Shown here one piece after another: positions 13,039-43,698 of a stretch of DNA of 58,049 nt. Every line of letters begins with the position of its first letter. Positions within the stretch are counted from its first letter, which is position 1. The stretch comes from Anaerolineaceae bacterium. GTDB taxonomy: Bacteria; Chloroflexota; Anaerolineae; Anaerolineales; Anaerolineaceae. The notes beneath the pieces are model-generated. The model did no database searches. It was given only the letters and a program-made list of their open reading frames with translations, and was not told where the DNA came from. Location: positions 1 through 58,049 of the forward strand of contig JAFPZX010000173.1 of the NCBI GenBank assembly GCA_017417055.1, in the 5' to 3' direction. Both the position numbers and the translations under genes were made by a program.

Positions 13039-15134
<2,096 letters not shown>

Positions 15135-19476: not shown

Positions 19477-20382
19477 ATGAATACTTCAGCAAGTGCACCG
19501 GCAAAGACAATTCTTTTTGGAGAACACGCTGTCGTCTATGGAGAGCCCGCTATCGCCATTCCACTGTCCGGAATCAGAACCTATGCGGAAATACATCCAA
19601 ATGGGAAAGAGTTTCGCATTATTTCAGAAAGTGCTCACCTGAACCGAACCTATGGTCAGCTTATCAAAGGCAGCGGTCTTGAAATGCTGTTATCAAAGCT
19701 GAAAGAAAGAATGGCAGTTCAAGAGCTGCCCGCTGACACACTGAAAATTACCGGCAACATTCCAATTGCCTCCGGATTAGGCTCCGGAGCTGCGCTTTCC
19801 GTTGCTGTTATCCGTGCATTCGCAAAACAATACAACTTATCTTTATCAACGGAAGACATAAATCAACTTGCCTACCAAATCGAAAAAATCTACCATGGAA
19901 ATCCTTCCGGGATCGATAATACAACCATTGCTTATGAACAGCCTATACTGTTCTCAAAAAATACAGGTTTTAGACCGATCAATGCGGATTTCACGAAATT
20001 GAATTTGCTGGTTATTGATTCCGGCATTTGCAGTAAAACCATCGATGTGGTAACCGATGTCAGAAATAATCTCACTGTAAATGAAAAATATATACGCGAA
20101 ATCGGCTCACTGGTTCGTTCGACTGTCAAAGCGCTTGATTCCGGAAATGAAACTGAAATCGGACAATTAATGACGGAAAACCACAGATTATTGCAGAATA
20201 TCAATGTGTCCTGTCCCGTACTGGATGAAATCATTCAAATCGGCATATCCAACGGTGCATTAGGCGGTAAACTGACCGGTGCAGGCCGCGGCGGAAACGC
20301 ATTGATTTTAGCAAAAAGCAAGGAAGATGCTGAAAAACTATCCTCGTTATACGTCAATAAAGGTTATAAGGTAATTCTATGA
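19477..20382 (+). CDS. mvk: Mevalonate kinase
   Basis: A 301-residue GHMP-family kinase phosphorylating mevalonate to mevalonate 5-phosphate. Seen: the N-terminal APAKTILFGEHAVVYGEPAIA, the GHMP glycine-rich motif PIASGLGSGAA (residues 96-106), the catalytic Asp region NPSGIDNTT (D147), and the third motif KLTGAGRGGNALIL. It lies 9 nt after ubiA and overlaps the isopentenyl phosphate kinase gene by 4 nt. Mevalonate kinases are rare in bacteria outside Gram-positive cocci, Chloroflexota and a few others, so the pairing with IPK is a good lineage marker. Confidence 0.95.
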   Translation: MNTSASAPAKTILFGEHAVVYGEPAIAIPLSGIRTYAEIHPNGKEFRIISESAHLNRTYGQLIKGSGLEMLLSKLKERMAVQELPADTLKITGNIPIASGLGSGAALSVAVIRAFAKQYNLSLSTEDINQLAYQIEKIYHGNPSGIDNTTIAYEQPILFSKNTGFRPINADFTKLNLLVIDSGICSKTIDVVTDVRNNLTVNEKYIREIGSLVRSTVKALDSGNETEIGQLMTENHRLLQNINVSCPVLDEIIQIGISNGALGGKLTGAGRGGNALILAKSKEDAEKLSSLYVNKGYKVIL

Positions 20383-21167
20383 TCACATTACTGAAACTTG
20401 GGGGATCTCTGATCACAGACAAAGACAGTCCGCACACTGCCAGACCGGATGTCATTCGCCGTCTGGGAAAGGAAATATTTGATTATTGGAGAACTGATCA
20501 TTCTCCGCTCATCATTGGACACGGGTCAGGATCATTCGGACATATCCCCGCAAAACGCTATGGGACCCGCCAAGGTGTCAAATCAGCGGAAGACTGGGCC
20601 GGGTTTGCGGAAGTCCATGCAGAAGCAGCCGCACTAAACCAGATCGTAACAAATCTTCTCAGGGAATCCGGACTGCCAATTATCAGCTTTGTCCCGATGA
20701 ATCAGGTAAAAACCAATAACGGGAGCATTACCCACTGGGACACATCTGAGATAGTGAAAAGTTTTTCGGAATATGGACTGATTCCGCTTATTTTCGGTGA
20801 CACGGTATTCGATACAAACCAAGGCGGCACGATCCTTTCCACCGAGGACCTGTTTGAGCATCTTTGCAGCTCCTTTGCGGAAAAGCCAAGAATCCTTTTA
20901 GCAGGACTTGAAGACGGGGTTTGGTATGATTTTCCGCGTAAAACAAAGCTCATCACAAAGATTTCAGCATCCGATAAGGATGACGATAGTTTTATTCAGG
21001 GATCGGCTTCAACAGACGTCACCGGGGGAATGCACGAAAAAGTTCGGCTGATGAAAGAACTCGTCAGAAACAACCGTGCTCAATCCGTTACCATTTTTTC
21101 AGGAGAGCAGGCCGGAAATCTGACAAACGCATTGCTGGGGATTCAAACCGGGACAACGATTATTTAG
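20379..21167 (+). CDS. ipk: Isopentenyl phosphate kinase
   Basis: A 262-residue amino-acid-kinase-fold enzyme that phosphorylates isopentenyl phosphate to isopentenyl diphosphate, the last step of the alternative mevalonate pathway of archaea and Chloroflexota. It starts MITLLKLGGSLITDK (K6 and K15 contact ATP phosphates) and has the family-specific GHGSGSFGHIPAKRYG, whose last His (H55) holds the substrate phosphate. Later segments are PLIFGDTVFD, LAGLEDGVW and STDVTGGMHEKV. It is coupled to mevalonate kinase by an ATGA overlap. A mevalonate-5-phosphate decarboxylase is required between the two kinases but is not in the window. Confidence 0.95.
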   Translation: MITLLKLGGSLITDKDSPHTARPDVIRRLGKEIFDYWRTDHSPLIIGHGSGSFGHIPAKRYGTRQGVKSAEDWAGFAEVHAEAAALNQIVTNLLRESGLPIISFVPMNQVKTNNGSITHWDTSEIVKSFSEYGLIPLIFGDTVFDTNQGGTILSTEDLFEHLCSSFAEKPRILLAGLEDGVWYDFPRKTKLITKISASDKDDDSFIQGSASTDVTGGMHEKVRLMKELVRNNRAQSVTIFSGEQAGNLTNALLGIQTGTTII

Positions 21168-30552: not shown

Positions 30553-30852
30553 ATGACTATAAGTCATTTAGCAGAGTATAAAGAAGCAGATTTATCTCAA
30601 TTGGAATACACATACCATTTACTGACGAGATTAACAGATGACGAGCTTAGGGCAGTCCAACAAGTCGCTATTGTTTTCATAAATAGAAACCATGAAAAAG
30701 AAAATATCGATACAATCGTTCCGTTTCAACCACAGACAGAATCGCAGCTTTTAGAACGGATTGATCGTTCTCTAAAACAAGTTGATGCAGGACTTTGCGA
30801 GGATTTAGATGATGTTATAGCTGAGATGAGTTTCGGAGAAAAAAATGAATGA
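30553..30852 (+). CDS. Antitoxin of a RelE/ParE-type module
   Basis: A 99-residue acidic protein directly upstream of a RelE/ParE toxin and overlapping it by ATGA. The first 60 residues are predicted helical (LEYTYHLLTRLTDDELRAVQQVAIVFINRN); the C-terminal half (QLLERIDRSLKQVDAGLCEDLDDVIAEM) resembles the toxin-wrapping tails of RelB/Phd-like antitoxins, with the common DVIAEM-like end. No clear DNA-binding motif is identified. AAGGAGGT precedes the start. The region is A/T-richer than its neighbours, consistent with horizontal transfer. Confidence 0.75.
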   Translation: MTISHLAEYKEADLSQLEYTYHLLTRLTDDELRAVQQVAIVFINRNHEKENIDTIVPFQPQTESQLLERIDRSLKQVDAGLCEDLDDVIAEMSFGEKNE

Positions 30853-31166
30853 AAACATACCACGTAAAAGTCAGCCCTGAAGCAAAAGCGGATCTAAAAA
30901 GGTATAGAGACTACTTGTTATACCGAAAAAAGAATTCTCAAGCAGCCAAAAATGTAGTACAGGATTTTTATGCAACTGCGTCTCAACTGAGGACAATAGC
31001 AGGGATTATACGAAAGCCGGATAGTGAAAAACTTAGAATTAGAAAATTGAAAAGGATTAATTTTCTAAAACTTGACTATTTCCTTCTTTATCGTATAGAT
31101 GAGGATGTTGTATCCATTACAAATATGTTTCATTCGCTTGAAGACTACGAAAGTAAATTAAAATGA
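30849..31166 (+). CDS. RelE/ParE superfamily toxin
   Basis: A 105-residue basic protein with the RelE/ParE pattern: an N-terminal strand YHVKVSPEAKADLKRYRDYLLY, the middle region AASQLRTIAGIIRKPDSEKLRIRKLKRINF, and the C-terminal strands YFLLYRIDEDVVSITNMFHSLEDYESKL. Members either cleave mRNA in the ribosome (RelE) or poison gyrase (ParE); the sequence does not decide which. Translational coupling to the antitoxin and a terminator after the pair support a complete module. Confidence 0.85.
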   Translation: MKTYHVKVSPEAKADLKRYRDYLLYRKKNSQAAKNVVQDFYATASQLRTIAGIIRKPDSEKLRIRKLKRINFLKLDYFLLYRIDEDVVSITNMFHSLEDYESKLK

Positions 31167-31348: not shown

Positions 31349-32596
31349 CTACTCTTGTGGAACAGGTAAAGTTGAACCGCCGTACGGCATCATGAGGACA
31401 CTTGCGTTTTTACCGTATTTTTCGAGCAGCTTGTCTATTGTTTCCTGTAAATCCGAAACATAATTAAAGTGAAGTTTCTCCACAAAGTCCTGTTTTAAAT
31501 CTGTGAAAAGATAAATATCCGCGCGCTTCATCACCATGGCAATGGCAGCCGCCTTATGACCGCCCAGGACGAATTCCCGTTCAATATGCGGGATCATGTC
31601 CAGCGGATTTTCATGGTTCAGCATCCAATCTTCAAAATGTTTTTCGCCCAGTCCTTCAATACCGGAGGCGATCCAAACGATAGATCCGCCGTCCCGTACA
31701 GCCTTTCCGGCGTTGTCCAAAGCTTTCTGAGCCTGATAGAGATTCATATCCTTTGGGAAACCTCCCGCTGAAACAATCACGATATCCGCCTTTTTGGGGA
31801 TCGGAAGCGAATACATTTTATCCAGCAGTTTGCATCCGGCCCGATGAGCTTCAATCACGTCACCGGCGACACAATGGCGGATCATCTTATGCTCATCCAA
31901 AACAACATTGACAATAAACGCCACCGGGACAAACTCTCGGACGGAATCGATATCCTGACGAACCGGATTCCCTTCAATCTTCCCTGTTGTTGCATTCGGA
32001 TCCACCATACGGGAATGATTTTTCTGGATCGCCTCGCGGGTGGAAACACCCGGCATGATGGCTTTCATTCCGCCGCTGTAACCGACAAAATAATGATACT
32101 CAATATTTCCGAGACAAATCACCTTATCTGCTTCTGCAACCGGTTTATAAATATCCACAGGCGTACCGTTTGCGGTCACACCCAAATGAACCATTTCGCC
32201 GTTGGAATCAAGGATTTGATATTCGTCAAAAACCTTCTCTCCGCAGAGCTTCTTTTTCTCTTCATCAGTATGTCCGCGGTGGCTTCCCAATGCAAGTACG
32301 ATCGAAACATCCTCATTCGGAACGCCGGCAGCTTTAATTTCATCAAGAACAGCCGGGAGAACTTTATAAGAGGGCATCGGACGGCTGATGTCACTGGTTA
32401 CGATAACAACTTTTTCCCCCGGTTTGACGATCTCACGCAGTTTCGGCGTCCCGATTGGATTTTCCAGCGCATCTTCGATAGTTTTCTGCTCATTCAATGG
32501 AATATCCGGAAGATTTGCGTGCAAAACATTCATCACATTCTCATCCGGGACCGTGATTTCAACCTGTTCTTTTCCGATTGCAAAAACCTGTTTCAT
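31349..32596 (-). CDS. larA: LarA-family nickel-pincer racemase/epimerase
   Basis: A 415-residue LarA homologue. LarA enzymes racemise or epimerise alpha-hydroxy acids through hydride transfer to a nickel-pincer nucleotide cofactor covalently bound to a Lys. The conserved set is visible: SDISRP (D69, R72), LALGSHRGH (H106), IEYHYFVGYSGG (H168) and GGMKAIMPGV (K178, the cofactor lysine). Known members act on lactate, malate, aryl lactates or gluconate-type sugar acids, so the substrate is open. Its position at the end of an inositol/transketolase cluster and its 4-nt overlap with the LacI gene favour a sugar-acid substrate (inference). Cofactor genes larB, larC and larE are not in the window. 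Confidence 0.9.
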   Translation of the reverse strand: MKQVFAIGKEQVEITVPDENVMNVLHANLPDIPLNEQKTIEDALENPIGTPKLREIVKPGEKVVIVTSDISRPMPSYKVLPAVLDEIKAAGVPNEDVSIVLALGSHRGHTDEEKKKLCGEKVFDEYQILDSNGEMVHLGVTANGTPVDIYKPVAEADKVICLGNIEYHYFVGYSGGMKAIMPGVSTREAIQKNHSRMVDPNATTGKIEGNPVRQDIDSVREFVPVAFIVNVVLDEHKMIRHCVAGDVIEAHRAGCKLLDKMYSLPIPKKADIVIVSAGGFPKDMNLYQAQKALDNAGKAVRDGGSIVWIASGIEGLGEKHFEDWMLNHENPLDMIPHIEREFVLGGHKAAAIAMVMKRADIYLFTDLKQDFVEKLHFNYVSDLQETIDKLLEKYGKNASVLMMPYGGSTLPVPQE

Positions 32597-33582
32597 TTCC
32601 GTGTACTCCTTCGAACCACTAACTCCGGTTCAAGCATAATATGATGCTTTTTAATTTCTTTATTATCGATCATATCGATCAGCATTTCAGCTGAAAGCTT
32701 CCCCATTTGATTTCTCGGCTGGGCAATCGTTGTCATCTGTATCTGAGGAAGTCCCGCTAGCATGATGTCGTCAAAACCAACAACACCTATCTCTTCAGGA
32801 ACATGTCTATTATGCTCCATTAAATACTGCAAAACACCAAGCGCGATCACATCATTTCCGCAAAAAATTCCATCGGCATCCGGAAATGCTGACAATAACT
32901 TTTCAGCCATTTTGTATCCGCTCTCAACGGAAAATCCGCCATATAATATATGGTCATCGTCTATATTCATACCGCGTTCCCGCAGTTTAGAACGAAAACC
33001 ATCTATACGAAAATCATTTGACTGACTGTTTCGGCTGCCGCCGATAAATGCAAAATGATGATATCCACAATCAATCAGATGATCTGCGGCAATTTGACCG
33101 CCCTTGTAATTATCAATTTCTATATAATTTTCATTTTCTCCCGGAATACAGGAAATCAACACACAAGGTATTGAAATTCCGGAAAGATCCGGAGGAACTT
33201 TACCGGCAGGTTTATAAATAATGCCATCTACCCGCTGGTTCTGCAGCTGATCCAAATGTGTTTTTTCAATTTCCTCATTCCAATTCGTATTGCACAATAC
33301 CGTGGTATACCCGCAGCTGAAGGCATATTCATCCACAGTATAGGCGATATCAGCAAAAAACGGGTTGGAAATATCCGGAAGGATCAGCGCGATTGTATTG
33401 GTTTTGTTTGTCTTCAGGCTGCGCGCATGAATATTGGGACGATATCCCATTTCTTCCGCAGCCGCAAGAACTTTATCACGCGTTGCGGGACTTACCCCGC
33501 TCAGGTGATTCAGTGTCCGCGAAACAGTGGCATACGAAACACCGGTTTGTTCCGCTATGTCTTTGATCGTGACTTCACCCAT
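32593..33582 (-). CDS. LacI-family transcriptional repressor
   Basis: A 329-residue regulator with the LacI helix-turn-helix (VTIKDIAEQTGVSYATVSRTLN, residues 4-25), hinge helix (PNIHARSLKTNKT) and periplasmic-binding-protein-like sensor (ALILPDISNPFFADIAYTVDE, GIFCGNDVIALGVLQYL, EEIGVVGFDDIMLAGLPQIQMTTIAQP). It lies inside the cluster it probably controls, between the transketolase and larA genes. A LacI-type palindrome upstream of iolG (about 41957-41972) is the likely operator. The effector may be an inositol derivative or a downstream sugar phosphate (inference). Confidence 0.93.
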   Translation of the reverse strand: MGEVTIKDIAEQTGVSYATVSRTLNHLSGVSPATRDKVLAAAEEMGYRPNIHARSLKTNKTNTIALILPDISNPFFADIAYTVDEYAFSCGYTTVLCNTNWNEEIEKTHLDQLQNQRVDGIIYKPAGKVPPDLSGISIPCVLISCIPGENENYIEIDNYKGGQIAADHLIDCGYHHFAFIGGSRNSQSNDFRIDGFRSKLRERGMNIDDDHILYGGFSVESGYKMAEKLLSAFPDADGIFCGNDVIALGVLQYLMEHNRHVPEEIGVVGFDDIMLAGLPQIQMTTIAQPRNQMGKLSAEMLIDMIDNKEIKKHHIMLEPELVVRRSTRK

Positions 33583-33598
33583 AATAAAATCTCAATGG

Positions 33599-33630
33599 GA
33601 AGCAGTGACCGGAAACCGGTTCACTGCTTC
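33599..33630 (-). other. Intercistronic hairpin between tktC and lacI
   Basis: Arms GAAGCAGTGACCGG and CCGGTTCACTGCTTC with one bulged base and a 3-nt loop. There is no T run, so it more likely affects mRNA stability or processing than termination. Confidence 0.6.
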
Positions 33631-33793
33631 ATAATAATCAAAACGCTGCAGAAAATACAGATTGTCAATGATATGAGAATCCGATACTTTCTATTTTTCA
33701 CGAGATAAAGCAGCTATTCAGAACACGTCTGCCCAAGATACACCTTTGACTCGATTCTATGTCTCCGGTGACAGTCCCGTTACTGAAAAGGTT

Positions 33794-34756
33794 TTATTTT
33801 CTCGCAATTGTCTTCTTTGCTTCTTCAACAACCTTTGCTGCGGTCAAACCGTAGGTTTCCGCCAAAAAGTCCACAGTACCGACCTGGCCGAAGCGGTCAC
33901 GAATACCGACCATGGAAATCGGTGTAGGAAGATTTTCGCCCAGATATTCCGAAACAGCAGCTCCTAAACCACCGACAACATTACCGTTTTCAGCAGTCAC
34001 AATAGCGCCGCATTTCGCTGCATATTTCAAAACACATGCCTCATCCAGCGGTTTGATGCACCACATATCGATAACAGCGGCAGAAATGCCTTCTTTTTCC
34101 AATTCTTCAGCAGCTTTCAATGCTTCAGAAACCATATAGCCTGACGCGATGATTGCCACATCTTTGCCATCGCGCAGAACATTCGCTTTCCCCTGTTCAA
34201 AGGTTGAATCCTCGGAGTAGACAGCAACGCAGTTCTTGCGGCAGATACGGACATAAGTCAGTCCCTTATTTTCCACCAATTGCGGAAGAACAGAAGCGAG
34301 CATAGTGCTGTCGGTCATATCGATCACGGTCGCTTCTGGAACAGCCCGGTACAAACAAATATCTTCAAAAGGCATATGTGTACCGCCGTTATATGCGGCG
34401 TTGATACCGGAATCGGACCCGACAATCACAACATTATTCTTCGCATAAGCGACAGACATAAAAGCCTGGTCGAATACACGGCGTCCGGCAAAGGAACCGA
34501 AGGTATGGACGATCGGTTTCATTCCTGAAGCTGACAAACCCGCGGCAACGCCGACCATATTGGCTTCCTGAATACCGGCTTCCACAATTTGATCCGGATA
34601 GTCCTTATCCAAACCATAGGTGCCAATGGAGTTCATCAGGTCTGCATCCATATAGATAACTTTACTGTCGGACTGGACCATTTTCTTGATTGTCGCGCCG
34701 AAAACATTCTTTCCCGCTACCTTTTCTTTTTCTCCGTTATAAATGCATTTGAACAT
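33794..34756 (-). CDS. Transketolase, C-terminal subunit (pyrimidine and C domains)
   Basis: A 320-residue protein carrying the pyrimidine-binding and C-terminal domains of transketolase as a separate polypeptide. Seen: ATIKKMVQSDSKVIYMDADLM, the catalytic-Glu region DQIVEAGIQEANMVGVAAGLS, FGSFAGRRVFDQAFMSVAYAKNNVVIVGSDSG and the C-terminal AENGNVVGGLGAAVSEYL. It pairs with the N-terminal subunit 10 nt upstream. Split transketolases occur in many anaerobes and also in dedicated catabolic clusters (for example apulose-phosphate transketolases), so the ketol donor here need not be a pentose phosphate. Confidence 0.93.
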   Translation of the reverse strand: MFKCIYNGEKEKVAGKNVFGATIKKMVQSDSKVIYMDADLMNSIGTYGLDKDYPDQIVEAGIQEANMVGVAAGLSASGMKPIVHTFGSFAGRRVFDQAFMSVAYAKNNVVIVGSDSGINAAYNGGTHMPFEDICLYRAVPEATVIDMTDSTMLASVLPQLVENKGLTYVRICRKNCVAVYSEDSTFEQGKANVLRDGKDVAIIASGYMVSEALKAAEELEKEGISAAVIDMWCIKPLDEACVLKYAAKCGAIVTAENGNVVGGLGAAVSEYLGENLPTPISMVGIRDRFGQVGTVDFLAETYGLTAAKVVEEAKKTIARK

Positions 34757-34766
34757 CTGGCACCTC

Positions 34767-35588
34767 TTATTCCAATTCAGCTTTCAGTTCTGCGATGTAT
34801 TCATCGGCATCATCTGCAGCAACATTCAGGTGATGGTTGAGTTTCGTTTCCTCAACAGCTTTTACACCCGCACCTTTGATCGTATCGAGAATAATCATCG
34901 CAGGTTTATCACCCTGATTTGCCTGAGCAACTTTGACAGCATCAGCGATCTTATCCGGATTACTTCCGTCAATACGCATTGTATACCAGCCAAAAGCCTC
35001 AAATTTTTCGTCAATTGGTTCAATATTGCAGATATCGGAGGTGTAACCGTCCAGCTGACGTTTGTTATTGTCAACAAAAGCGATCAGGTTGCCCAGTTTA
35101 TGCTGCGGTGCGAACATAGCCATTTCCCACACCTGGCCTTCCTGACATTCACCATCACCAAGGATCAGATATACACGGGCATCTTTTTTCTGAGCCTTCA
35201 GTCCAAGAGCCAGTCCGGCTGCAGTAGAAGCGCCCTGACCGAGAGAGCCTGTGGTCATGTCAATACCGGGAGTCAGGTTTTTGTCACAATGACTCGGCAG
35301 ATGAGTGCCGTTCTGGTTCAAGGTCTTCAGCATTTCCATCGGGAAATACCCTTTGAGTGCAAGTGTTGCGTAAAGCGCCGGACCTGCGTGGCCTTTTGAC
35401 ATAACAAGGCGATCCCGATCTTCCCACTGAGGATTTTTCGGGTCATATTTCATAATTTCGCCGTAAAGAGCGGCCAGACAATCCGTGATGGAAAGGGCTC
35501 CGCCGATATGGCCAAAACCACGGGCTTTGAACTCTTCCAATTGTGCAATGCGGATCTCTGTTGCGAATTTCTTGAGTTGAGACTGCAT
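34767..35588 (-). CDS. Transketolase, N-terminal subunit (thiamine diphosphate domain)
   Basis: A 273-residue protein with the diphosphate-binding half of transketolase. Seen: GFGHIGGALSITDCLAALYG (the HxGG His), DRLVMSKGHAGPALYATLALKG, GIDMTTGSLGQGASTAAGLALG, and the thiamine diphosphate motif GDGECQEG ending about 28 residues later in VDNNKRQLDG. The start at 35588 is preferred over the longer open frame because GGAAGGA precedes it and the family starts MQSQLKKFA. It lies downstream of the archaeal-type PGK after a 100-nt gap with two hairpins. Confidence 0.94.
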   Translation of the reverse strand: MQSQLKKFATEIRIAQLEEFKARGFGHIGGALSITDCLAALYGEIMKYDPKNPQWEDRDRLVMSKGHAGPALYATLALKGYFPMEMLKTLNQNGTHLPSHCDKNLTPGIDMTTGSLGQGASTAAGLALGLKAQKKDARVYLILGDGECQEGQVWEMAMFAPQHKLGNLIAFVDNNKRQLDGYTSDICNIEPIDEKFEAFGWYTMRIDGSNPDKIADAVKVAQANQGDKPAMIILDTIKGAGVKAVEETKLNHHLNVAADDADEYIAELKAELE

Positions 35589-35602
35589 TATTATTTCCTT
35601 CC

Positions 35603-35622
35603 GACAATGAAAACTCATTGTC
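35603..35622 (-). other. Hairpin upstream of the transketolase N-subunit gene
   Basis: GACAATGA-AAAC-TCATTGTC, perfect 8-bp stem with a 4-nt loop, 14 nt before the start codon on the minus strand. It is close enough to influence ribosome access. Confidence 0.6.
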
Positions 35623-35633
35623 ACTTAAGTTGC

Positions 35634-35666
35634 AAATTGCATTGCCGAAATTCAGCAATGCAATTT
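35634..35666 (-). other. Perfect 12-bp intercistronic hairpin between pgk2 and tktN
   Basis: AAATTGCATTGC and GCAATGCAATTT around a 9-nt loop, with no T run. With the neighbouring small hairpin it marks a probable processing or stability element. Confidence 0.65.
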
Positions 35667-35689
35667 ACTTTATTTTATTGTTCCAAAAC

Positions 35690-36934
35690 TTACTTCGCCT
35701 TATCTCGTTCGTAAGCTTTTTCCATTGCCGTGATCAGCGGCATCTTTTTGCCGGACATAAAGCGGACCATAGCGCCGCCGCCCGTGCAGACATAACTGAT
35801 ATCATTCAGGTCAATGAATTTCGTTGCGGAGCTGATAGTGTCACCGCCGCCGATGACAGAATAAGCAGGACTTTCAGCGATTGCTTTCCAGATTTCCCGC
35901 GTTCCGTATTCGAACATCGGATTTTCATAAACACCGGCAGGACCATTTGCGAAAACAGTTTTTGCATTATCAAGAATTTCTTTGTATGCAGCGACAGTCT
36001 TCGGACCGATATCAGGATACAGGCTGTCAATGGGCATATCTGCCACATCGATCTCTGCACGTTCCCCATCTTTTTCATACGCCACATCACACGGCATATA
36101 AATTTTACCGGGGAATTCGCTGAGGAAGCGCTTGGAATCCTCCACAAAGCCCAGCAAGTCCTTGTCCTTCAGGAATTTCAGCGTTTTTTCGCCAACGTTG
36201 ACACCGGAGGCATACAGCATCACCAGACCGGTCACACCGGTGGTCAAAATCGCATCCGCAGTCCCGTTTTCCAACACCGGGCGCATCATGCCATAGGCAT
36301 CAGAAATTTTCGCGCCGCCGAGCACAAACACACACGGTTTTTCCGCATTATGAAGTACGTTGTAAAGCGCTTCATATTCTTTGAAGAGCAGCGGACCGGC
36401 AGCTGTCGGAAGCAGTTCCTGAAAAGCGACCATGGAAGGGGAATTCCGATGAGCTGCAGAAAAAGCTTCATTGACATAAAAGTCAAACAGCGGCGCCAGT
36501 TTGCGAACTTCCCAGCAGTGAGTGTATTCTTCCGCGGTCTGTTTCACATCCTTTTCAAATGTCGAAACTTCCTCGGTCAAATAGCGAAGATTCCCCAGAA
36601 TAACCACTTCACCGGCTTTCAGGGCTTCCACACGTGCAATCGCAGCAGGGCCGCAGACGTCATCGATATACTCAACAGGCTGCCCCAAAAGGTCAGACAG
36701 ACGTTCCGCGTGTTCATGCAGGTCAACCAGATTTTGGTAATCCAGGGTATCACCCTGATGGGCGATGATGGCAATACCGGCGCCCTTGTCCAGCAAGTCT
36801 TTGATAACCGGGATCGTTTTCACGATCCGGTTATCATTTACGATTTTCTTCGTGACAGGATCGACCGGAGAATTGATATCCGGGCGGAGCAGAACTTTTT
36901 TTCCCCGCAGATCGATCCCTTCAAGAGAACGCAT
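35690..36934 (-). CDS. Archaeal-type phosphoglycerate kinase paralogue, altered substrate site
   Basis: A 414-residue PGK-fold protein much closer to archaeal PGKs (LRPDINSPVDP, IAHQGDTLDY, HEHAERLSDLLGQPVEYIDDVCG) than to the bacterial pgk at 15.2 kb. ATP-site segments are kept ([32 protein letters not shown]). Of the substrate basic patch, Arg residues are kept in LLRPDINS (R17), NDNRIVK (R36), NLRYLTEE (R117) and AAHRNSP (R163). However, the basic residue of HLGRP/HQGKP is Asp here (HQGDT, D62). A Met at 36946 gives a 4-residue longer start; 36934 follows GGAAG. It directly follows type II GAPDH. It may phosphorylate ADP from an acyl phosphate other than 1,3-bisphosphoglycerate (inference). 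Confidence 0.88.
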   Translation of the reverse strand: MRSLEGIDLRGKKVLLRPDINSPVDPVTKKIVNDNRIVKTIPVIKDLLDKGAGIAIIAHQGDTLDYQNLVDLHEHAERLSDLLGQPVEYIDDVCGPAAIARVEALKAGEVVILGNLRYLTEEVSTFEKDVKQTAEEYTHCWEVRKLAPLFDFYVNEAFSAAHRNSPSMVAFQELLPTAAGPLLFKEYEALYNVLHNAEKPCVFVLGGAKISDAYGMMRPVLENGTADAILTTGVTGLVMLYASGVNVGEKTLKFLKDKDLLGFVEDSKRFLSEFPGKIYMPCDVAYEKDGERAEIDVADMPIDSLYPDIGPKTVAAYKEILDNAKTVFANGPAGVYENPMFEYGTREIWKAIAESPAYSVIGGGDTISSATKFIDLNDISYVCTGGGAMVRFMSGKKMPLITAMEKAYERDKAK

Positions 36935-36936
36935 TT

Positions 36937-37965
36937 TTACTTCCATTTGCCAAGTCCCAGATATTTGTTGGTTTCAGCAACAGCCTTCAGGCGGTCGGTT
37001 TCCATATTGCAGGCAGCGCGGATACCATCCATGGTTTCCGGAATGGTGACAGATTCCTGCGGGATGTTGATAGCATACATGATGTCATCGCCGGATTCAA
37101 CGATGGAATCCGCCCACAAACCGATTTCATACATATCGCCGCGCGGGTTGCCGAGGTCACGGGCATAGCGGAAGAAGGAAGCATTGCCCTTGAAGCCTTC
37201 ATCGATGGTGACGACACGAATGCGGTCGTGTGTCAGGAATGCATCCAAAGCCATCTGCTTTGTGATCTTCTGTTTCCCTTTGGCAACAACAGTGATGATA
37301 TGACCGTGAGTCACAGGCGTGTGAACAAGAATACCGGTCGCTTCGATGTGCGGCATGATGGTCATGAGGTCGACAGCCTGATGGGACGGAGCCTTGTCCA
37401 TCTGCAGCGCATTGGTCAAACCGCGGTGATAGTCACCCGGGTCAGCAACACGGCGAATGATGGTGATGGCGACTTTTTCAATGCCATAGGCGCGATCCAG
37501 GCAGTCGACAGAACGGATCAAACCGGTGGTATTGCAGGATGTAAGCTTCAGATAATTCTGTCCGATACCTTTTTCATAGTTTGCATAGCCATGGAAAAAG
37601 ACATCAGCAACAGAGTTCTTTTCGCCGCCCTGGAAGATGGCTTTCTTGTTATGTTTTACATAAAGTTCCTTGTTTTTCGCGCCAACGCCGCCGGGGGAGG
37701 AGTCCAGCATGATATCGACTTTGTCGATCAGTTCTTCAAAAGTACCGGAAACCGGAATGCCTACCGCGTCAAACTGGGATTTATCAGCGCCATCGACCAG
37801 ATAAAGGTCATAGGGCATTCCCTTTTCTTTCAGCGCACGAATGGAAAGAGTCGGGGCGAGGTCAGCAACACCGACCAGTTCCATGTCACCCTGTCGGGCT
37901 ACGCCGTCAGCCAGACGCTGTCCAATAACGCCATAACCGGCGACACCAACTTTAATCTTACTCAT
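36937..37965 (-). CDS. Type II (archaeal) glyceraldehyde-3-phosphate dehydrogenase homologue
   Basis: A 342-residue dehydrogenase of the archaeal type II GAPDH family. The Rossmann start is VGVAGYGVIGQRLADGV. Other signatures are DSSPGGVGAKNKELY, AIFQGGEKN, the active-site LTSCNTTGLIRS (C144) and the catalytic His in TPVTHGHII (H220), then RRVADPGDYHRG. In archaeal enzymes the phosphate loop reads PSHHGPD; here it is PSHQAVD, so the second His is Gln (Q196). This suggests a changed aldehyde or phosphate specificity. It lies 23 nt after iolE and 2 nt before the PGK paralogue, forming an oxidation/substrate-level-phosphorylation pair inside an inositol cluster. Confidence 0.9.
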   Translation of the reverse strand: MSKIKVGVAGYGVIGQRLADGVARQGDMELVGVADLAPTLSIRALKEKGMPYDLYLVDGADKSQFDAVGIPVSGTFEELIDKVDIMLDSSPGGVGAKNKELYVKHNKKAIFQGGEKNSVADVFFHGYANYEKGIGQNYLKLTSCNTTGLIRSVDCLDRAYGIEKVAITIIRRVADPGDYHRGLTNALQMDKAPSHQAVDLMTIMPHIEATGILVHTPVTHGHIITVVAKGKQKITKQMALDAFLTHDRIRVVTIDEGFKGNASFFRYARDLGNPRGDMYEIGLWADSIVESGDDIMYAINIPQESVTIPETMDGIRAACNMETDRLKAVAETNKYLGLGKWK

Positions 37966-37988
37966 ACTTCTTTGCTCCTTATAAAAAT

Positions 37989-38888
37989 TTACAGACCGGC
38001 AACTTCTTTGATATACTTCCGGGCTTTCACTGCGTATTCAAACGGATTGGCTTTTGCCGGATCCTGTTCAGCTTCAACCAGGACGTAACCTTCGTAACCA
38101 TTTTCTTCAAGAACTTCAAAGATGGACGTGAAGTCCACATCGCCGTCGCCCGGAACAGTAAAGACACCGGCACGGACAGCATCCAGGAAGCTCATGTTCT
38201 GCTTTTTGACTTCTTCATAAACCTTGAGTCGCAGATCCTTGAGGTGGACATGCTTAATGCGGTGGATGTACTTCTTCAGAACCGGGAGCGGATCAATGCC
38301 TGCGAAGGAAAGATGACCGGAGTCGAACAGGAGGTAAACCAGTTCCGGATCGGTCTCGTCCATCAGGCGGTCGATTTCTTCCACAGTCTGTACGCCGGTA
38401 CCCATATGATGATGGATTGTCAGGTACATGCCTTTTTCGCGGGCCAAAGCGCCCATCTCATTGAAGCCTTTGCAGACAGTCTTCCACTGTTCCTCAGTAT
38501 AGACCGGTTTGTCGGGGCCGAGAATCGGCACATCCAGTTTTCCCTGGATGGAATTCCCCTGTTCAGAGGCACCGATGATTTTCGCGCCAAGATAGTTCAG
38601 TTTATCGCGATGGGCGATGAAATTCTGAATAGTGACTTCATAAGGTTCACTGGTCAGCAGGGAGGAGAACCAGGCATTGCAGACCTGCAGCCCGCGGACA
38701 TCCAGCTTATGCTTCAAAACAGCCGGATCCTTTGGATATTTGTTACCGATTTCAGTTCCTTTGAATCCGGCCAGCGCCATTTCGCTGACGCACTGTTCAA
38801 AGGTGTTTTCCGCGCCGAGGTCCGGCATATCATCATTTGTCCAACCGATCGGGGCAATCCCCAATTTTACTTTATTCGGATCAAGCAT
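37989..38888 (-). CDS. iolE: Myo-inosose-2 dehydratase
   Basis: A 299-residue TIM-barrel enzyme (xylose isomerase-like) that dehydrates scyllo-inosose to 3D-(3,5/4)-trihydroxycyclohexane-1,2-dione. Family features are the start KVKLGIAPIGWTNDDMPDLG, EMALAGFKGTEIGNKYP, IIGASEQGNSIQG and YLTIHHHMGTGVQTVEEIDRLM. Metal ligands are in YLLFDSGHLSFAG and IKHVHLKDLR, followed by GDGDVDFTSIFEVLEENGYEGYVLVEAEQDP. It lies 21 nt after iolD, in the order expected for an inositol operon. Confidence 0.95.
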   Translation of the reverse strand: MLDPNKVKLGIAPIGWTNDDMPDLGAENTFEQCVSEMALAGFKGTEIGNKYPKDPAVLKHKLDVRGLQVCNAWFSSLLTSEPYEVTIQNFIAHRDKLNYLGAKIIGASEQGNSIQGKLDVPILGPDKPVYTEEQWKTVCKGFNEMGALAREKGMYLTIHHHMGTGVQTVEEIDRLMDETDPELVYLLFDSGHLSFAGIDPLPVLKKYIHRIKHVHLKDLRLKVYEEVKKQNMSFLDAVRAGVFTVPGDGDVDFTSIFEVLEENGYEGYVLVEAEQDPAKANPFEYAVKARKYIKEVAGL

Positions 38889-38909
38889 TATTTACCTCTA
38901 TACGAAATA

Positions 38910-40778
38910 TTAGTAATCACGTGCTTCAGCAATATGCTTCTGCATGTCTTTCCAACAATCAACAACTTTCTGGTCTTTTGCTACTTCAGCCACGCCGACA
39001 CGCCACCAGTTTTCATATCCCGGGGTCATGGAGCCATGTTCGACTTTCATATCGAAGACACAGACACGGTTTTCTTTCTTTGAATCTTCCAGAGCAGCTT
39101 TCAGCTCGGCAAGGTTATGAATGGAATACCCCTTTGCGCCGTAACCTTCCGCGATCTTCGCAATATCCATCGGCACGATCGGACCATCAAGGAAACCGGT
39201 TTCCGGATTTCGGTAGCGGAAAACGGTACCGAAAGTCTTGGTTCCCTGATTGTTCTGCAGATTTTCAATGCAGCCCCATCCGGAATTATCGAAGACCATG
39301 ATGTTGATCTTGATGCCTTCCTGGATCGCTGTATAAAGCTCACTGTGGAGCATGATGAAGGAACCATCGCCAAGGAAGGTATAAACTTCACCCTGCGGCC
39401 AGGCCATCTTTACACCAACTGCCGCACAAACTTCATAGCCCATGCAGGAAAAACCATATTCCATGTGGTAGGTGCAGGGATTGCCCGGGCGGAACAGACG
39501 CTGCATATCACCCGGCAGACTTCCGGAAGAACCGACAGCCACGTCATCCGGTCCCATAAAGTTATTGATGGTACCCAATGCAAGTGTCTGCGGGAACACG
39601 CCTTCAGATTCCGGTTTGGAATACCATTCATCAACAATGGCATCCCATTCTTTCTTTGCTGCAGCGATTTCATCGGTATAAGCGGATTTGTAACCGCGTT
39701 TCTGCAATTCTTCACCGATTGCTTCCAGAGAAACCTTTGCATCTCCGATGATTGCTTCTCCATCCATCTTGACCGCGTCAAAGGAAGTAACATTGATATT
39801 GAGCATCTTGACGTCGGGGTTCTGGAATGCCCACTTGGAGCTGGTTGTAAAGTCTGTCAGGCGGGAACCGACCGCGATCACCAGATCGGCATCTTTTGCG
39901 ATCACGTTGGCTGCTTTTCCACCGGTAACACCGACACCGCCGAGATTCAGCGGATGCTTCCAGTCGATAACACCTTTCCCGGCCTGCGTTTCACCAAACG
40001 GGATGTTGAAATCTTCAGCAAATTTTTTGAAAGTATCCCAGGCTTCGCTGTAACGGACACCGCCGCCGCAGATGAGCAGCGGTTTTTTGCTTGCAGAAAT
40101 CAGATCCGCAGCACGTTTTACCTGATCAGCATTGATCCCGCGGCGGTCCATATGCCAGACACGTTTCTGGAAGAAGAATTCCGGATAGTCATAGGCTTCA
40201 CCTTCAACATCCTGCGGCATGCAGACGCAAACTGCGCCGGTATCTGCCGGATCTGTCAACACGCGCATGGCATGGATCAAGGCGGTCATGATCTGTTCCG
40301 GACGTTCGATTTTGTCCCAATAACGGCAAACGCCTTTGAAGGCTTCATTGACCGTGTAACCATAGCCGTTATAGAATTCAGCCTGCTGCAATACAGGATC
40401 CGGCTGGCGGGTGGCGAAGGTATCACCGGGGAACACCAGGAGCGGAATGCGGTTTGCGGTGGCAGTTCCGCAGGCGGTCACCATGTTCATGGCGCCGGGA
40501 CCAATGGAGGAAACGCAGGGGATGATCTTGCGGCGGTTGTGCTGTTTCGCAAAACCGATGGCAACATGGGCCATACCCTGTTCATTGTGACCCTGGTAGA
40601 ATCGGAGGTTATGACCGCCTTGTTCCAGTGCCTGTCCGACACCGACTACACAGCCGTGCCCGAAGATTCCGATGATCCCGTCCACAAATTTTTCTTCTTT
40701 CCCGTCAAATTCAACATATTGATTATCAAGGAATTTTACGATCGCCTGAGCCATCGTCAAACGAATTCGATTGGTCAT
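38910..40778 (-). CDS. iolD: 3D-(3,5/4)-trihydroxycyclohexane-1,2-dione acylhydrolase
   Basis: A 622-residue thiamine-diphosphate enzyme of the acetolactate-synthase superfamily that opens the ring of trihydroxycyclohexane dione to 5-deoxyglucuronate. Seen: the N-terminal RLTMAQAIVKFLDNQY, IIGIFGHGCVVGVGQALEQ, RFYQGHNEQGMAHVAIGFAKQ (the catalytic Glu), the middle domain GGGVRYSEAW, and the ThDP motif GDGSFIMLHSELYTAIQEG ending in NIMVFDNSGWG. Full length. CGGAGG precedes the start. It follows iolG after a 130-nt gap that holds a long hairpin. Confidence 0.96.
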   Translation of the reverse strand: MTNRIRLTMAQAIVKFLDNQYVEFDGKEEKFVDGIIGIFGHGCVVGVGQALEQGGHNLRFYQGHNEQGMAHVAIGFAKQHNRRKIIPCVSSIGPGAMNMVTACGTATANRIPLLVFPGDTFATRQPDPVLQQAEFYNGYGYTVNEAFKGVCRYWDKIERPEQIMTALIHAMRVLTDPADTGAVCVCMPQDVEGEAYDYPEFFFQKRVWHMDRRGINADQVKRAADLISASKKPLLICGGGVRYSEAWDTFKKFAEDFNIPFGETQAGKGVIDWKHPLNLGGVGVTGGKAANVIAKDADLVIAVGSRLTDFTTSSKWAFQNPDVKMLNINVTSFDAVKMDGEAIIGDAKVSLEAIGEELQKRGYKSAYTDEIAAAKKEWDAIVDEWYSKPESEGVFPQTLALGTINNFMGPDDVAVGSSGSLPGDMQRLFRPGNPCTYHMEYGFSCMGYEVCAAVGVKMAWPQGEVYTFLGDGSFIMLHSELYTAIQEGIKINIMVFDNSGWGCIENLQNNQGTKTFGTVFRYRNPETGFLDGPIVPMDIAKIAEGYGAKGYSIHNLAELKAALEDSKKENRVCVFDMKVEHGSMTPGYENWWRVGVAEVAKDQKVVDCWKDMQKHIAEARDY

Positions 40779-40810
40779 TATTTATCCTCCGACTAAATTA
40801 TTCTACTTTC

Positions 40811-40847
40811 CTTCACAGCTGTTCAGTAAAATTTGAACAGCCGTGAA
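40811..40847 (-). other. Intercistronic hairpin between iolG and iolD
   Basis: Arms CTTCACAGCTGTTCA and TTGAACAGCCGTGAAG with one mismatch and a 6-7 nt loop. There is no T run on the transcribed side, so it is a candidate mRNA-stability or attenuation element. Confidence 0.6.
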
Positions 40848-40911
40848 GTCAATAAATCATATCAAACGCGCAAAGCGCTATCCTATTACTCTGACAACTG
40901 GTCACTGACCA

Positions 40912-41925
40912 CTATTTAATCTCAGACAACTTCACCGGGCGGTGTTCTTTCATGGAGAGGTTCGCTGCCTGTGCGATCTTGATCGGCTGCAGACCATCCT
41001 GGATGGTGACAGGAACTTCAGTTCCGTTCTGGATTGCTTTGATGAATTCACGAACTTCATCGGCGAACGACTGCATGTAGCGTTCCAGGAAGAAGAACAG
41101 CGGTTTGTCTTTGGTGACTGCATCTTTGGTGCTGACGGTGACATTGGTTTCCGTATCATTATCAGCAGCGGCTGCACCCTTGGTACCGAAAACTTCAACG
41201 CGCTGGTCATAACCATAAACAGCCTGGCGGCAGTTGTCGATGACACCAATTGCGCCGTTTGCAAATTTCAGTGTGATAATAGCGGTGTCGATATCACCGG
41301 CTTCGCCAATGGCAGGATCGACAGTTACGGCGCCGACTGCGTAAACTTCTTCAACCGGGCTGCCGGCCTGATAGGCTGCCATATCGAAATCATGGATGGT
41401 CATATCCAGGAACATACCACCGGATGCGGCTGCATATTCAGCTGACGGCGGTTCCGGATCACGGGAGGTGATTTTCACGATTTGGATGTCACCCAGATCA
41501 CCGTTTTTCGCAAGTTCATGGATCTTGCGGAAGTTATGATCGAAACGGCGGTTGAAACCGATCTGCATTTTTACGCCGGCTTCTTTCACAACCTTTTCAG
41601 TTTCGAGGATTTTTGCAACGGAGGTGTCGATCGGTTTTTCGCAGAAAATGTGCTTACCGGCTTTGGCAGCTTCCATTGCGATATCAGCGTGAGTGTTTGT
41701 CGGAGAGCAGACAAAGACCGCCTGAATCGTGGGGTCTTCAAGGATTTTGTGATAGTCTTCATAGTAATTCGGGATGCCGAATTCTTCAGCAGCTTTTTTC
41801 GCACTTTCGACAAATTTGTCGGAAATTGCGACCAGTTCAGCTTCAGGAACGTTATTTGTCAAGGACTTGGAATGAACACGACCGATTCGGCCTGCGCCGA
41901 TGATACCAACACGAACTTTTTCCAT
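40912..41925 (-). CDS. iolG: Inositol 2-dehydrogenase
   Basis: A 337-residue Gfo/Idh/MocA oxidoreductase oxidising myo-inositol (or scyllo-inositol) to inosose with NAD. Seen: the dinucleotide-binding start VRVGIIGAGRIGRVHSKSL, VFVCSPTNTHADIAMEAAKAGKHIFCEKPIDTS (the catalytic EKP Lys), GFNRRFDHNFRKI, and the conserved MFLDMTIHDFDMAAYQAG with the active-site Asp and His. AAGGAG precedes the ATG. It is the first gene of the 10.5-kb minus-strand cluster. Substrate stereochemistry cannot be fixed from sequence, but iolD and iolE downstream make an inositol very likely. Confidence 0.93.
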   Translation of the reverse strand: MEKVRVGIIGAGRIGRVHSKSLTNNVPEAELVAISDKFVESAKKAAEEFGIPNYYEDYHKILEDPTIQAVFVCSPTNTHADIAMEAAKAGKHIFCEKPIDTSVAKILETEKVVKEAGVKMQIGFNRRFDHNFRKIHELAKNGDLGDIQIVKITSRDPEPPSAEYAAASGGMFLDMTIHDFDMAAYQAGSPVEEVYAVGAVTVDPAIGEAGDIDTAIITLKFANGAIGVIDNCRQAVYGYDQRVEVFGTKGAAAADNDTETNVTVSTKDAVTKDKPLFFFLERYMQSFADEVREFIKAIQNGTEVPVTIQDGLQPIKIAQAANLSMKEHRPVKLSEIK

Positions 41926-41956: not shown

Positions 41957-41972
41957 TTGCAAACGTTTACTA
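41957..41972 (-). promoter_or_regulatory. Candidate LacI-type operator upstream of iolG
   Basis: The plus strand reads TTTGCAAACGTTTACT. The core AAACGTTT is a perfect palindrome flanked by semi-symmetric GC/AC, the pattern of LacI/CcpA-family operators. It lies 32 nt upstream of the iolG start, downstream of an A/T-rich region with -10-like GATAAT. The cluster encodes its own LacI regulator. Confidence 0.6.
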
Positions 41973-42536: not shown

Positions 42537-43118
42537 TTAAAAATCGAACAAACTCGGCTGTACCCAGTGGTCCAGCTCCTCCTTGTTCGATTTCTTCTTT
42601 GAAGGAGCTTTGGAAGCTCCTTTTTTCTTCCTGGTTTCAGGAACTCCGGCAAAAATCTGACCCATCATAGCCTTATGGATTTCGTTTCGATCCCCTTCTT
42701 TCATCGAATTTATAGATCGGATCTCAAAGGCTAACGGAACCTGCTGATAGGAGTATTCCGGAATAAAATCAAAATCCTTTTTATATATATACGCAACAAG
42801 CCGCAAATTATCAAATTCAATGGAAAAACCGTAATCCGAATCCATTACAGGACTGTCAATTCCAAATGCCGCCAATTCCATTTTCAAAAGAGGCAGACAT
42901 TTTTCAAACGGGAAAATGCCATCCTCGTTCTGTTTCAGAAAGCACAAGCAATATGTATTTCCTTCAAAGTGATCAAGTCCGGAAAGATAAAACGACTCTT
43001 TGAGAAATCCGCTGCGGGAGAGTCCGGATAATACAACTTCTTTCAATGCCAGTCCGAGAGCTTCCTGTCTGTTTTCATTTGAATAATTATTCGCTAACTG
43101 TTGTATTATTTTTTCCAT
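42537..43118 (-). CDS. AbiEii-like protein lacking the nucleotidyltransferase motif
   Basis: A 193-residue partner of the AbiEi-like gene. The N-terminus ANNYSNENRQEALGLALKEVVLSGLSRSGFLKESFY and the block FEKCLPLLKMELAAFGID match the AbiEii/COG2253 toxin family, as does the late EIRSINSMKEGDRNEI and the end HWVQPSLFDF. The expected GGTALR segment is missing, and the following acidic motif, normally S-E-D-L-D, is E-G-N-T-Y. The nucleotidyltransferase active site therefore appears lost. It overlaps the AbiEi-like gene by 32 nt. It is either an inactivated toxin or a protein reused for another role. Confidence 0.7.
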   Translation of the reverse strand: MEKIIQQLANNYSNENRQEALGLALKEVVLSGLSRSGFLKESFYLSGLDHFEGNTYCLCFLKQNEDGIFPFEKCLPLLKMELAAFGIDSPVMDSDYGFSIEFDNLRLVAYIYKKDFDFIPEYSYQQVPLAFEIRSINSMKEGDRNEIHKAMMGQIFAGVPETRKKKGASKAPSKKKSNKEELDHWVQPSLFDF

Positions 43119-43698
43119 ATTTCTTTCTCATAAAGGATTTCAGAATATGCAGATTCCTGCAGCCGTATAAATCAGCAAGTTGAAACAAAATATTGGGATC
43201 CAGTCTGAAAATTTTCCGCTTTCCGATTCCAATCTCATCAAATAATAAAGTTTTGAATTCTTTCAGGTTCGCAGCCGGAGCAGAATTATATAGCGTGTCA
43301 CAAAGCGCTTTTTCCGGAGAAGCCATTATGAAGCTATATCCATCTTCATTATGAAGCACTAATTCATAAGGATAAGCCTTTGCCGGGATATCCCGATAGG
43401 TAAAAGTTCCAAAGGAAGTCTCATGGATTTTTTCTTTGCGTTTTCCCAATGCGGCACAGGTAACAGGATATTTTTTTCCGGGAATCATATTGTAATAAGT
43501 CAGCGCATACTCAAAGGAGATATATGACGGTCCGTAAATCACGCCTGCCAGATAATGAGGAGGTGTCTTTGGATCATCTTCATAAAATCCGCGAATGATC
43601 GGATACAATTCACCTTTTTCGACCATTCTTCCGATTTTTGCCTTGGGATTAACATATTCCGAAAGCTCTGAAATGAGTAATGCTGTAGTCCTTATCAT
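43087..43698 (-). CDS. AbiEi-like antitoxin (type IV TA)
   Basis: A 203-residue protein with the AbiEi layout. An N-terminal region covers SELSEYVNPKAKIGRMVEKGELYPIIRGFYE, normally a winged helix. The conserved middle reads YLAGVIYGPSYISFEYALTYYNMIP, then YELVLHNEDGYSFIMASPEKALCDTLY, where the ASPEKALxDxxY motif is diagnostic. AbiEi represses its own operon and counters the AbiEii nucleotidyltransferase in phage abortive infection. It is upstream of, and overlaps, the degenerate toxin gene. A terminal KKYGKNNTTVSE tail is not informative. Confidence 0.82.
   Translation of the reverse strand: MIRTTALLISELSEYVNPKAKIGRMVEKGELYPIIRGFYEDDPKTPPHYLAGVIYGPSYISFEYALTYYNMIPGKKYPVTCAALGKRKEKIHETSFGTFTYRDIPAKAYPYELVLHNEDGYSFIMASPEKALCDTLYNSAPAANLKEFKTLLFDEIGIGKRKIFRLDPNILFQLADLYGCRNLHILKSFMRKKYGKNNTTVSE

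Follow-up and report, generated by a model that had tools for sequence, protein, structure and literature searches.

Gene content of the locus

The stretch of DNA analyzed here (58,049 nucleotides, contig JAFPZX010000173.1 of an Anaerolineaceae bacterium, in the following called the window) is contig C84 of a 4.4 Mb genome that is 85% complete (G000) and stems from a member of the Chloroflexota with relatives in animal guts. On the minus strand, between positions 31349 and 41925, it carries a cluster in which genes for the degradation of inositol are combined with divergent homologs of glyceraldehyde-3-phosphate dehydrogenase (GAPDH, gap2) and phosphoglycerate kinase (PGK, pgk2), a split transketolase and the nickel-dependent racemase LarA, and we propose that this cluster probably encodes a route from inositol to malate. 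All nine open reading frames (ORFs) were recovered within this span, and curated models and Pfam families agree with the identities and the order iolG-iolD-iolE-gapII-pgkII-tktN-tktC-lacI-larA given in the first-pass annotation (Table 1). A second, ordinary gap (14001-15134) and pgk (15223-16398) are located on the plus strand of the same window at a distance of 20 kb, which makes the gap2/pgk2 pair of the cluster extra copies.

Table 1. Features of the cluster, with positions in the window and the supporting model matches
Feature	Position	Strand	Evidence
IolG, inositol 2-dehydrogenase	40912..41925	-	TIGR04380 473 bits, cut-off 355
IolD, trihydroxycyclohexane-1,2-dione hydrolase (ring opening)	38910..40778	-	TIGR04377 897 bits, cut-off 715
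IolE, inosose dehydratase	37989..38888	-	TIGR04379 406 bits, cut-off 290
Gap2, divergent type II GAPDH; proposed phosphorylating D-malate-semialdehyde dehydrogenase	36937..37965	-	PRK04207 404 bits, cut-off 185; TIGR01546 303, cut-off 232.9
PGK2, archaeal-type phosphoglycerate-kinase homolog; proposed ATP-forming 1-phospho-D-malate kinase	35690..36946	-	PF00162 352 bits
TktN, N-terminal half of split transketolase	34767..35594 (start possible at 35624)	-	PF00456 181 bits
TktC, C-terminal half of split transketolase, altered motif	33794..34756	-	PF02779 and PF02780
LacI-family regulator	32593..33582	-	PF00356 and PF13377; RbsR/CcpA-like, under every cut-off
LarA, nickel-pincer malate racemase (LarAH6/Mar2 group)	31349..32596	-	NF052593 551.4 bits, cut-off 500
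Candidate operator, LacI-type palindrome upstream of iolG	41958..41971	.	one mismatch to LacI-type consensus

Conservation of the gene neighborhood

Contigs were scanned with two Gap2 queries from the genus Flexilinea, and the best 80 of 286 relatives (79-99% identical) together with the single-contig congener G176 form the set of 81 loci to which the following counts refer; the loci are often cut by contig ends. The closest relatives (98-99%) belong to Flexilinea or Chloroflexi metagenome-assembled genomes (MAGs), and the gap2 loci among the best 80 also include other Anaerolineaceae, many Treponema/Spirochaetaceae MAGs, Lachnospiraceae (Dorea sp. D27, CE91-St61), a Christensenellaceae, other Clostridia, one Synergistaceae, one Peptococcaceae, two Planctomycetaceae and two Deltaproteobacteria MAGs, with the reservation that MAG names may be imprecise. 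Profile searches detected PGK2 in 74, TktN in 46, TktC in 46, IolE in 45, LarA in 44, IolD in 40, IolB in 31 and malic enzyme in 31 of the 81 loci. These numbers take into account the removal of weak matches, by which TktC was reduced from 48 to 46 (L075, L095) and IolG from 33 to 29 (L041, L043, L044, L101), and which left 11 loci with LacI (six dropped). The pgk2 gene lies on the same strand as gap2 in all 74 cases and within 300 bp of it in 70 of them. At least one of iolB, iolD and iolE is present in 46 loci, and the combination of gap2, pgk2, tktNC and larA with at least two of these three genes was found in 20; locus L103 of Flexilinea flocculi TC1 is complete in this respect. If only the 34 loci flanked by 6.5 kb or more on each side are considered, iolB, iolD or iolE occur in 22, LarA in 22 and malic enzyme in 13, and five contain no member of the iol, tkt, larA and malic enzyme genes. 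As a control, six of 12 loci of ordinary type II GAPDHs (33-37% identical) were inspected, and no other family of the cluster was present there. The linkage of PGK2 in 74 of 81 loci compared with empty control loci indicates that the association exceeds chance.

A few loci show deviating arrangements. In L094 and L100 gap2 lies near iolG and pgk2 is absent from the locus, with a radical-SAM protein encoded after gap2 in L100; such variants possibly skip the ATP-forming step or keep the kinase elsewhere. In L055, two iron-type alcohol dehydrogenases accompany tktNC and gap2, and pgk2, iol genes and larA are absent from the locus, which is perhaps a reductive relative of the module.

The upper branch of inositol degradation

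IolG, IolE and IolD, the upper enzymes of the classical iol pathway, all exceed their curated cut-offs. The first-pass annotation had assumed that iolB is replaced, but this is not supported: an IolB-family gene is present elsewhere in the source genome, and IolB-type genes occur in 31 of the 81 loci, where they are always located on the gap2 strand and at most 8.1 kb from gap2. The source genome encodes two PF04962 proteins, KduI (PRK00924, 419 bits) and a divergent IolB-family protein on contig C194, which is 67% identical to the IolB of locus L098 and reaches 153 bits with PF04962 (cut-off 23.9) but 81 bits with TIGR04378 (cut-off 205). In G176 the sole PF04962 gene sits just before iolD in the same operon. 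IolB is thus probably kept in the cluster genomes, and an isomerase of this family would indeed be required to make 2-deoxy-5-keto-D-gluconate (DKG), the donor of the transketolase reaction proposed below.

The situation is different for the kinase IolC. None of 16 cluster genomes (G000, G176 and 14 further ones) contains an IolC above the cut-off of 300 bits, and the best matches to the model amount to 136.6 bits in the source genome and about 115 bits in G176. In six of the 14 further genomes the match reaches 177-196 bits, and the fructokinase model gives each of these proteins a higher score (200-228 bits). Altogether, eight sub-threshold paralogs were scanned as candidates (the best of G000 and G176 and the six others), and seven of them score higher as fructokinase or KDG kinase. 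This is in line with the earlier suggestion that the kinase step is not part of the cluster and that this branch is apparently bypassed. A complete iolB/iolC/iolJ set elsewhere was not found, judged on IolC only; the IolJ aldolase and the IolA dehydrogenase are not among the nine cluster genes, and no genome search was aimed at either.

Signatures of malate racemase in LarA

Among the LarA models listed, the LarA of the window exceeds only NF052593, "nickel-dependent malate racemase, LarAH6" (551 versus 500). Its nearest solved structure is the malate racemase Mar2 (6d6z, 396 bits), followed by lactate racemases with 219 bits. In malate racemases, the residues aligned with LarA W358 and T359 are described to be H (or Q) and K (PMC11770544). 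This H/K pair is present in 44 of 44 readable LarAs of the clusters (one of the 45 is cut off), and both catalytic histidines are found in 45 of 45. Even the divergent Treponema-type LarAs of L053 and L054, which are 32% identical to Mar2, keep the motif, and the LarA of L053 stays with 382 bits under the NF052593 cut-off of 500. Cluster LarAs differ from Mar2 at the position of K173, which is F in 44 and I in one of 45. LarC, which is needed for the LarA cofactor, is encoded in the source genome and in 14 of 18 cluster genomes. Furthermore, the malic enzyme of the 31 loci mentioned above was checked in two members, which score over the Pfam cut-offs and under the NCBIfam ones; the link between LarA homologs and malic enzyme has already served as a context cue (PMC7583248). 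Taken together, the conversion of D- to L-malate by the cluster LarA is well supported by model and motif. As the in vivo role of malate racemases was called an open question in the 2020 discovery paper (PMC7583248), the cluster would, if our reading is true, provide a physiological role for these enzymes and a source of D-malate.

Divergence of Gap2, PGK2 and TktC

The catalytic cysteine of Gap2 (C144 in the motif SCNTTG) is invariant across 25 aligned sequences. Compared with 12 ordinary type II GAPDHs, Gap2 forms a separate group (tree support only 0.65) with dozens of fixed differences. In a sample of the phylum, Gap2 at an identity of at least 80% occurs in two of 400 genomes, both of the host genus, and 12 others match at 33-39%. 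PGK2 is similarly restricted, as it is present in 14 of 14 genomes of the host genus (71-100% identical) and, in 47 other genomes, is either absent or matched at 37-39% (six genomes). Its nearest solved structures are 2cun (302 bits), which we take to be the PGK of P. horikoshii, and 3uwd (202 bits), and the label archaeal-type seems reasonable for PGK2.

Other differences concern the binding of the substrate phosphate. PGK binds the 3-phosphate of its substrate through Arg65, Arg122 and Arg170 (PMC7729029). The 74 PGK2 sequences of the window and 73 loci never have Arg at residue 65; 52 of them have S and 22 have D at this site. All 30 ordinary PGKs compared, the top scorers of a 61-genome sample of the phylum, carry Arg65. 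N25, R38, H62, R122, R170 and the catalytic lysine are kept in all 74 and D23 in 72. The basic patch for 3-phosphoglycerate is incomplete in PGK2. The PGK2 sequences form one clade (support 0.996), in which the D65-type is a single sub-clade of 22 sequences. The transketolase of the clusters differs as well: all 46 cluster TktC sequences carry D and N at two positions that are occupied by H and D in the human and Carboxydothermus enzymes. These positions presumably correspond to E. coli H461 and D469, contacts to the phosphate and a hydroxyl of the substrate. Five transketolase-like proteins encoded elsewhere in cluster genomes (L173, L175, L177, L178, L184) have H and D, the motif reads S and D in an F. 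flocculi protein (L180/L181), and several others are DXS-like or without a readable motif. The Treponema cluster L054, which has no local tkt genes, is accompanied by a motif-bearing TktC elsewhere in its genome (L188).

A proposed pathway from inositol to malate

DKG has, with the ketone end up, the structure CH2OH-CO-CHOH(L)-CHOH(D)-CH2-COO-. By comparison of the structures, it can be regarded as D-xylulose-5-phosphate with a carboxylate in place of the phosphoester, and D-malate semialdehyde, OHC-CHOH(D)-CH2-COO-, would likewise be the carboxylate analog of D-glyceraldehyde-3-phosphate. By our reasoning, the 3S,4R configuration of DKG is also the one preferred by transketolase in its ketose donors. 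Myo-inositol would be converted to DKG by IolG, IolE, IolD and an IolB-family isomerase, which is established chemistry of these families and is assigned here by family membership. TktNC would then move carbons C5 and C6 of DKG, as a ketol unit, onto an aldose phosphate, which would yield xylulose-5-phosphate and D-malate semialdehyde. With NAD(P) and phosphate, Gap2 may oxidize the semialdehyde to 1-phospho-D-malate, and PGK2 may pass the phosphate to ADP, which would give ATP and D-malate. An oxidation by the GAPDH/PGK pair would give the D-form, for which a racemase would be needed; LarA would convert D-malate to L-malate, which could be used directly or via malic enzyme, encoded nearby in many relatives. 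In this way the IolC kinase and the aldolase step to malonate semialdehyde would be bypassed, so that DKG would cost no ATP and the PGK2 step would yield one.

The malate route was derived from the stereochemistry before the LarA group or the families of the neighboring genes had been seen, although the presence of LarA was already known. The malate-racemase model and motif of LarA and the malic enzyme in 31 of the 81 loci agree with the product derived beforehand. We therefore consider it probable, at roughly three in four, that the cluster encodes an inositol pathway with a lower branch through transketolase to malate. With somewhat less confidence, we still favor the wider reading that it represents a carboxylate version of the glycolytic pay-off phase, in which GAPDH and PGK are re-specialised to D-malate semialdehyde and 1-phospho-D-malate, a transketolase fed by DKG supplies them and a nickel-dependent malate racemase serves as adaptor, and which has spread between anaerobe phyla and uses another substrate in some Lachnospiraceae. 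The first-pass annotation had suggested a different fate for the ring-opened product: ketol transfer, formation of an acyl phosphate with gain of ATP and inversion of a hydroxy acid are supported, as is the linkage of the GAPDH/PGK pair with iol and tkt genes, which is conserved across the 81 loci with the full combination in 20; the replacement of IolB is not supported. It had named no end product, and our analysis points to malate.

Inositol is a common compound in plants and in the diet. If the proposal is true, the cluster adds a new lower branch of inositol degradation that saves the ATP of IolC and gains one at the substrate level, which is relevant to anaerobes, and the products of inositol fermentation would carry ecological weight. 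It would also mean that GAPDH and PGK, which are among the most conserved enzymes, jointly changed their specificity towards a carboxylate substrate, and that genes annotated as "gap" and "pgk" in such genomes of Treponema and Lachnospiraceae might be mistaken for glycolytic ones.

Alternative explanations and opposing evidence

The best of the alternatives, which we nevertheless regard as unlikely, is that TktNC, Gap2, PGK2, LarA and malic enzyme form a general device for carboxylated ketoses, for which inositol is one feeder and tartrate-type acids derived from 5-keto-gluconate possibly another. Dorea sp. D27 (L081) and Lachnospiraceae CE91-St61 (L082) have a gap2-pgk2-larA-malic enzyme-tktNC operon in genomes where no iolD was found over the search threshold. 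Nearby genes in L082 are of the sugar ABC-transporter type or encode a divergent epimerase that resembles IolO but stays under the cut-off, and L081 has a DctA-like carrier. Furthermore, malate racemases have been described to epimerise tartrate promiscuously (PMC11770544). However, iolB, iolD or iolE are present in more than half of the loci (46/81), iolD was found in 14 of 19 searched cluster genomes and the malic enzyme points to malate rather than tartrate.

Slightly less probable still is that gap2/pgk2 and the transketolase are ordinary auxiliary enzymes of glycolysis and the pentose phosphate pathway, which are co-expressed to handle triose phosphates. The families are indeed named after glycolysis, Gap2 lies over the type II GAPDH cut-off and Flexilinea G425 may have no transketolase besides the cluster TktC, but this explanation has to deal with the ordinary gap and pgk 20 kb away, with the loss of Arg65 in 74 of 74 PGK2 sequences and with the classical route yielding no triose phosphate if IolC is missing, and it leaves the linkage to malate racemase and malic enzyme unexplained. 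That the substrate of Gap2 and PGK2 is a different aldehyde acid of the pathway, for example malonate semialdehyde from an unseen aldolase, with transketolase as a side reaction, is very improbable: the divergent sub-cut-off IolC leaves room for an aldolase route, for which no IolJ or IolA search was made, but IolC, which precedes the aldolase, is under the cut-off in 16 of 16 genomes, and malonate has no chiral hydroxyl, so that LarA would have no role.

Several observations weigh against the proposed transketolase-malate pathway. With regard to linkage, 26 of the 81 loci lack iolB, iolD and iolE and contain tkt, larA or malic enzyme genes (L095 by a weak match only), and nine consist of gap2 and pgk2 with no other member, some of them on short contigs. 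Truncated contigs account for part of these cases, and iolD lies elsewhere in the genomes of L052, L070 and L083. No iolD over the search threshold was found in the genomes of Dorea sp. D27, CE91-St61, L095, L106 and L107. Inositol can thus not be the only feeder of the module, and another feeder substrate is likely in the first two. Furthermore, LarC was not found in four of 18 cluster genomes, three of which (L054, L065, L115) carry LarA in the locus, and since the malic-enzyme cue had already been used in PMC7583248, the evidence from malic enzyme depends in part on the assignment of LarA.

Other points concern the enzymes themselves. For the acceptor of the ketol unit, glyceraldehyde-3-phosphate is the most likely candidate, guessed from analogy. 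In Flexilinea G425 (98% complete) and in G000 (85% complete), no Transket_pyr protein was found besides the cluster TktC. For G425 this means that it must probably still accept sugar phosphates, and in both genomes it may also serve the ordinary pentose phosphate pathway. The fixed differences of Gap2 gave no clear reading of the substrate pocket, and PGK2 retains two of the three phosphate-binding arginines, with 2cun itself having Lys at position 65. Finally, three cluster-type IolBs score 81-113 bits against the TIGR04378 cut-off of 205, so that a sub-threshold IolB was accepted and sub-threshold IolCs were rejected, and the IolC match of G176 is narrowly its own best NCBIfam match (IolC 114 versus tagatose kinase 109).

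Regulation and neighboring genes

The palindrome upstream of iolG was scored against what we take to be the LacI-type consensus. The same site with one mismatch precedes iolG in L037, L038 and L040, and a perfect TGTAAACGTTTACA is found there in L017, L074 and L198, so that the same or a perfect palindrome lies upstream of iolG in six of nine distinct loci (10 of 14 records including duplicates). Within 200 bases upstream of iolG, L103 and L201 yielded no palindrome, and the one site in L202 has two mismatches. As LacI-type sites with two mismatches are common by chance in the window, the weight rests on the position and conservation of the palindrome. From these, we assume that the LacI protein probably represses the operon from the candidate operator before iolG.

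The cluster is flanked on one side by a likely toxin-antitoxin pair (window positions 30553-31166) with a ParE-type toxin (30849-31166, PF05016) and a 99-amino-acid upstream partner. Just upstream of the cluster, at 42537-43698, two overlapping minus-strand ORFs of 203 and 193 amino acids have no Pfam match, and their layout resembles a two-gene toxin-antitoxin unit. Further away (19477-21167), a GHMP kinase gene is followed by a gene of the amino-acid-kinase family, which we read as mevalonate kinase-like and isopentenyl-phosphate kinase-like; these genes fit with the cluster TktC as the only Transket_pyr protein found in G000, which implies that no DXS is present.

Comparison with known systems

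A transketolase-malate route of inositol degradation is not described in the top-ranked titles and abstracts among PMC papers under open licenses. The main text of two papers on LarA, among them PMC7583248, mentions neither inositol nor transketolase. The upper part of the pathway resembles the classical iolG-E-D-B-C-J-A pathway, as IolG, IolE, IolD and an IolB-family isomerase lead to DKG. In the classical route, including the propionate variant of Anaerostipes, DKG is phosphorylated and cut between C3 and C4 (PMC8355322). Here, in contrast, no IolC exceeds the cut-off, and we propose a cut by transketolase between C4 and C5 with malate as the end.

For the TktNC step, the closest precedent in the literature covered is the sulfo-transketolase pathway, in which the SqwGH transketolase acts on a sulfonated ketose with glyceraldehyde-3-phosphate as acceptor (PMC11659671). 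In both cases the phosphate of the sugar would be replaced by another anion, and xylulose-5-phosphate would be formed together with a shorter aldehyde; the two are likened here by their description. The differences are the carboxylate instead of the sulfonate and the fate of the aldehyde, which is proposed to be oxidized via an acyl phosphate with gain of ATP and to enter metabolism as malate. SqvD and SqwI are not among the nine cluster genes, and no search was aimed at either. A second precedent is the proposed cleavage of 5-keto-D-gluconate to tartrate semialdehyde by transketolase (Salusjarvi 2004 as cited in PMC7970118), which concerns the same bond and the same type of 5-keto-aldonate donor; the donor considered here is 2-deoxy, malate takes the place of tartrate and the genes form a dedicated cluster.

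LarA shares with Mar2/LarAH6 the family, a score over the curated cut-off and the H/K motif, and what the cluster may add is a source of D-malate. Gap2 and PGK2 resemble the archaeal-type (type II) GAPDH and PGK in their catalytic residues and in the adjacency of their genes, but PGK2 is set off as a separate clade that has lost Arg65, and Gap2 stands apart with weaker support. Judged from these comparisons of sequence and gene context, the module is best called a variant of inositol catabolism that appears to be built from re-specialised glycolytic enzymes.

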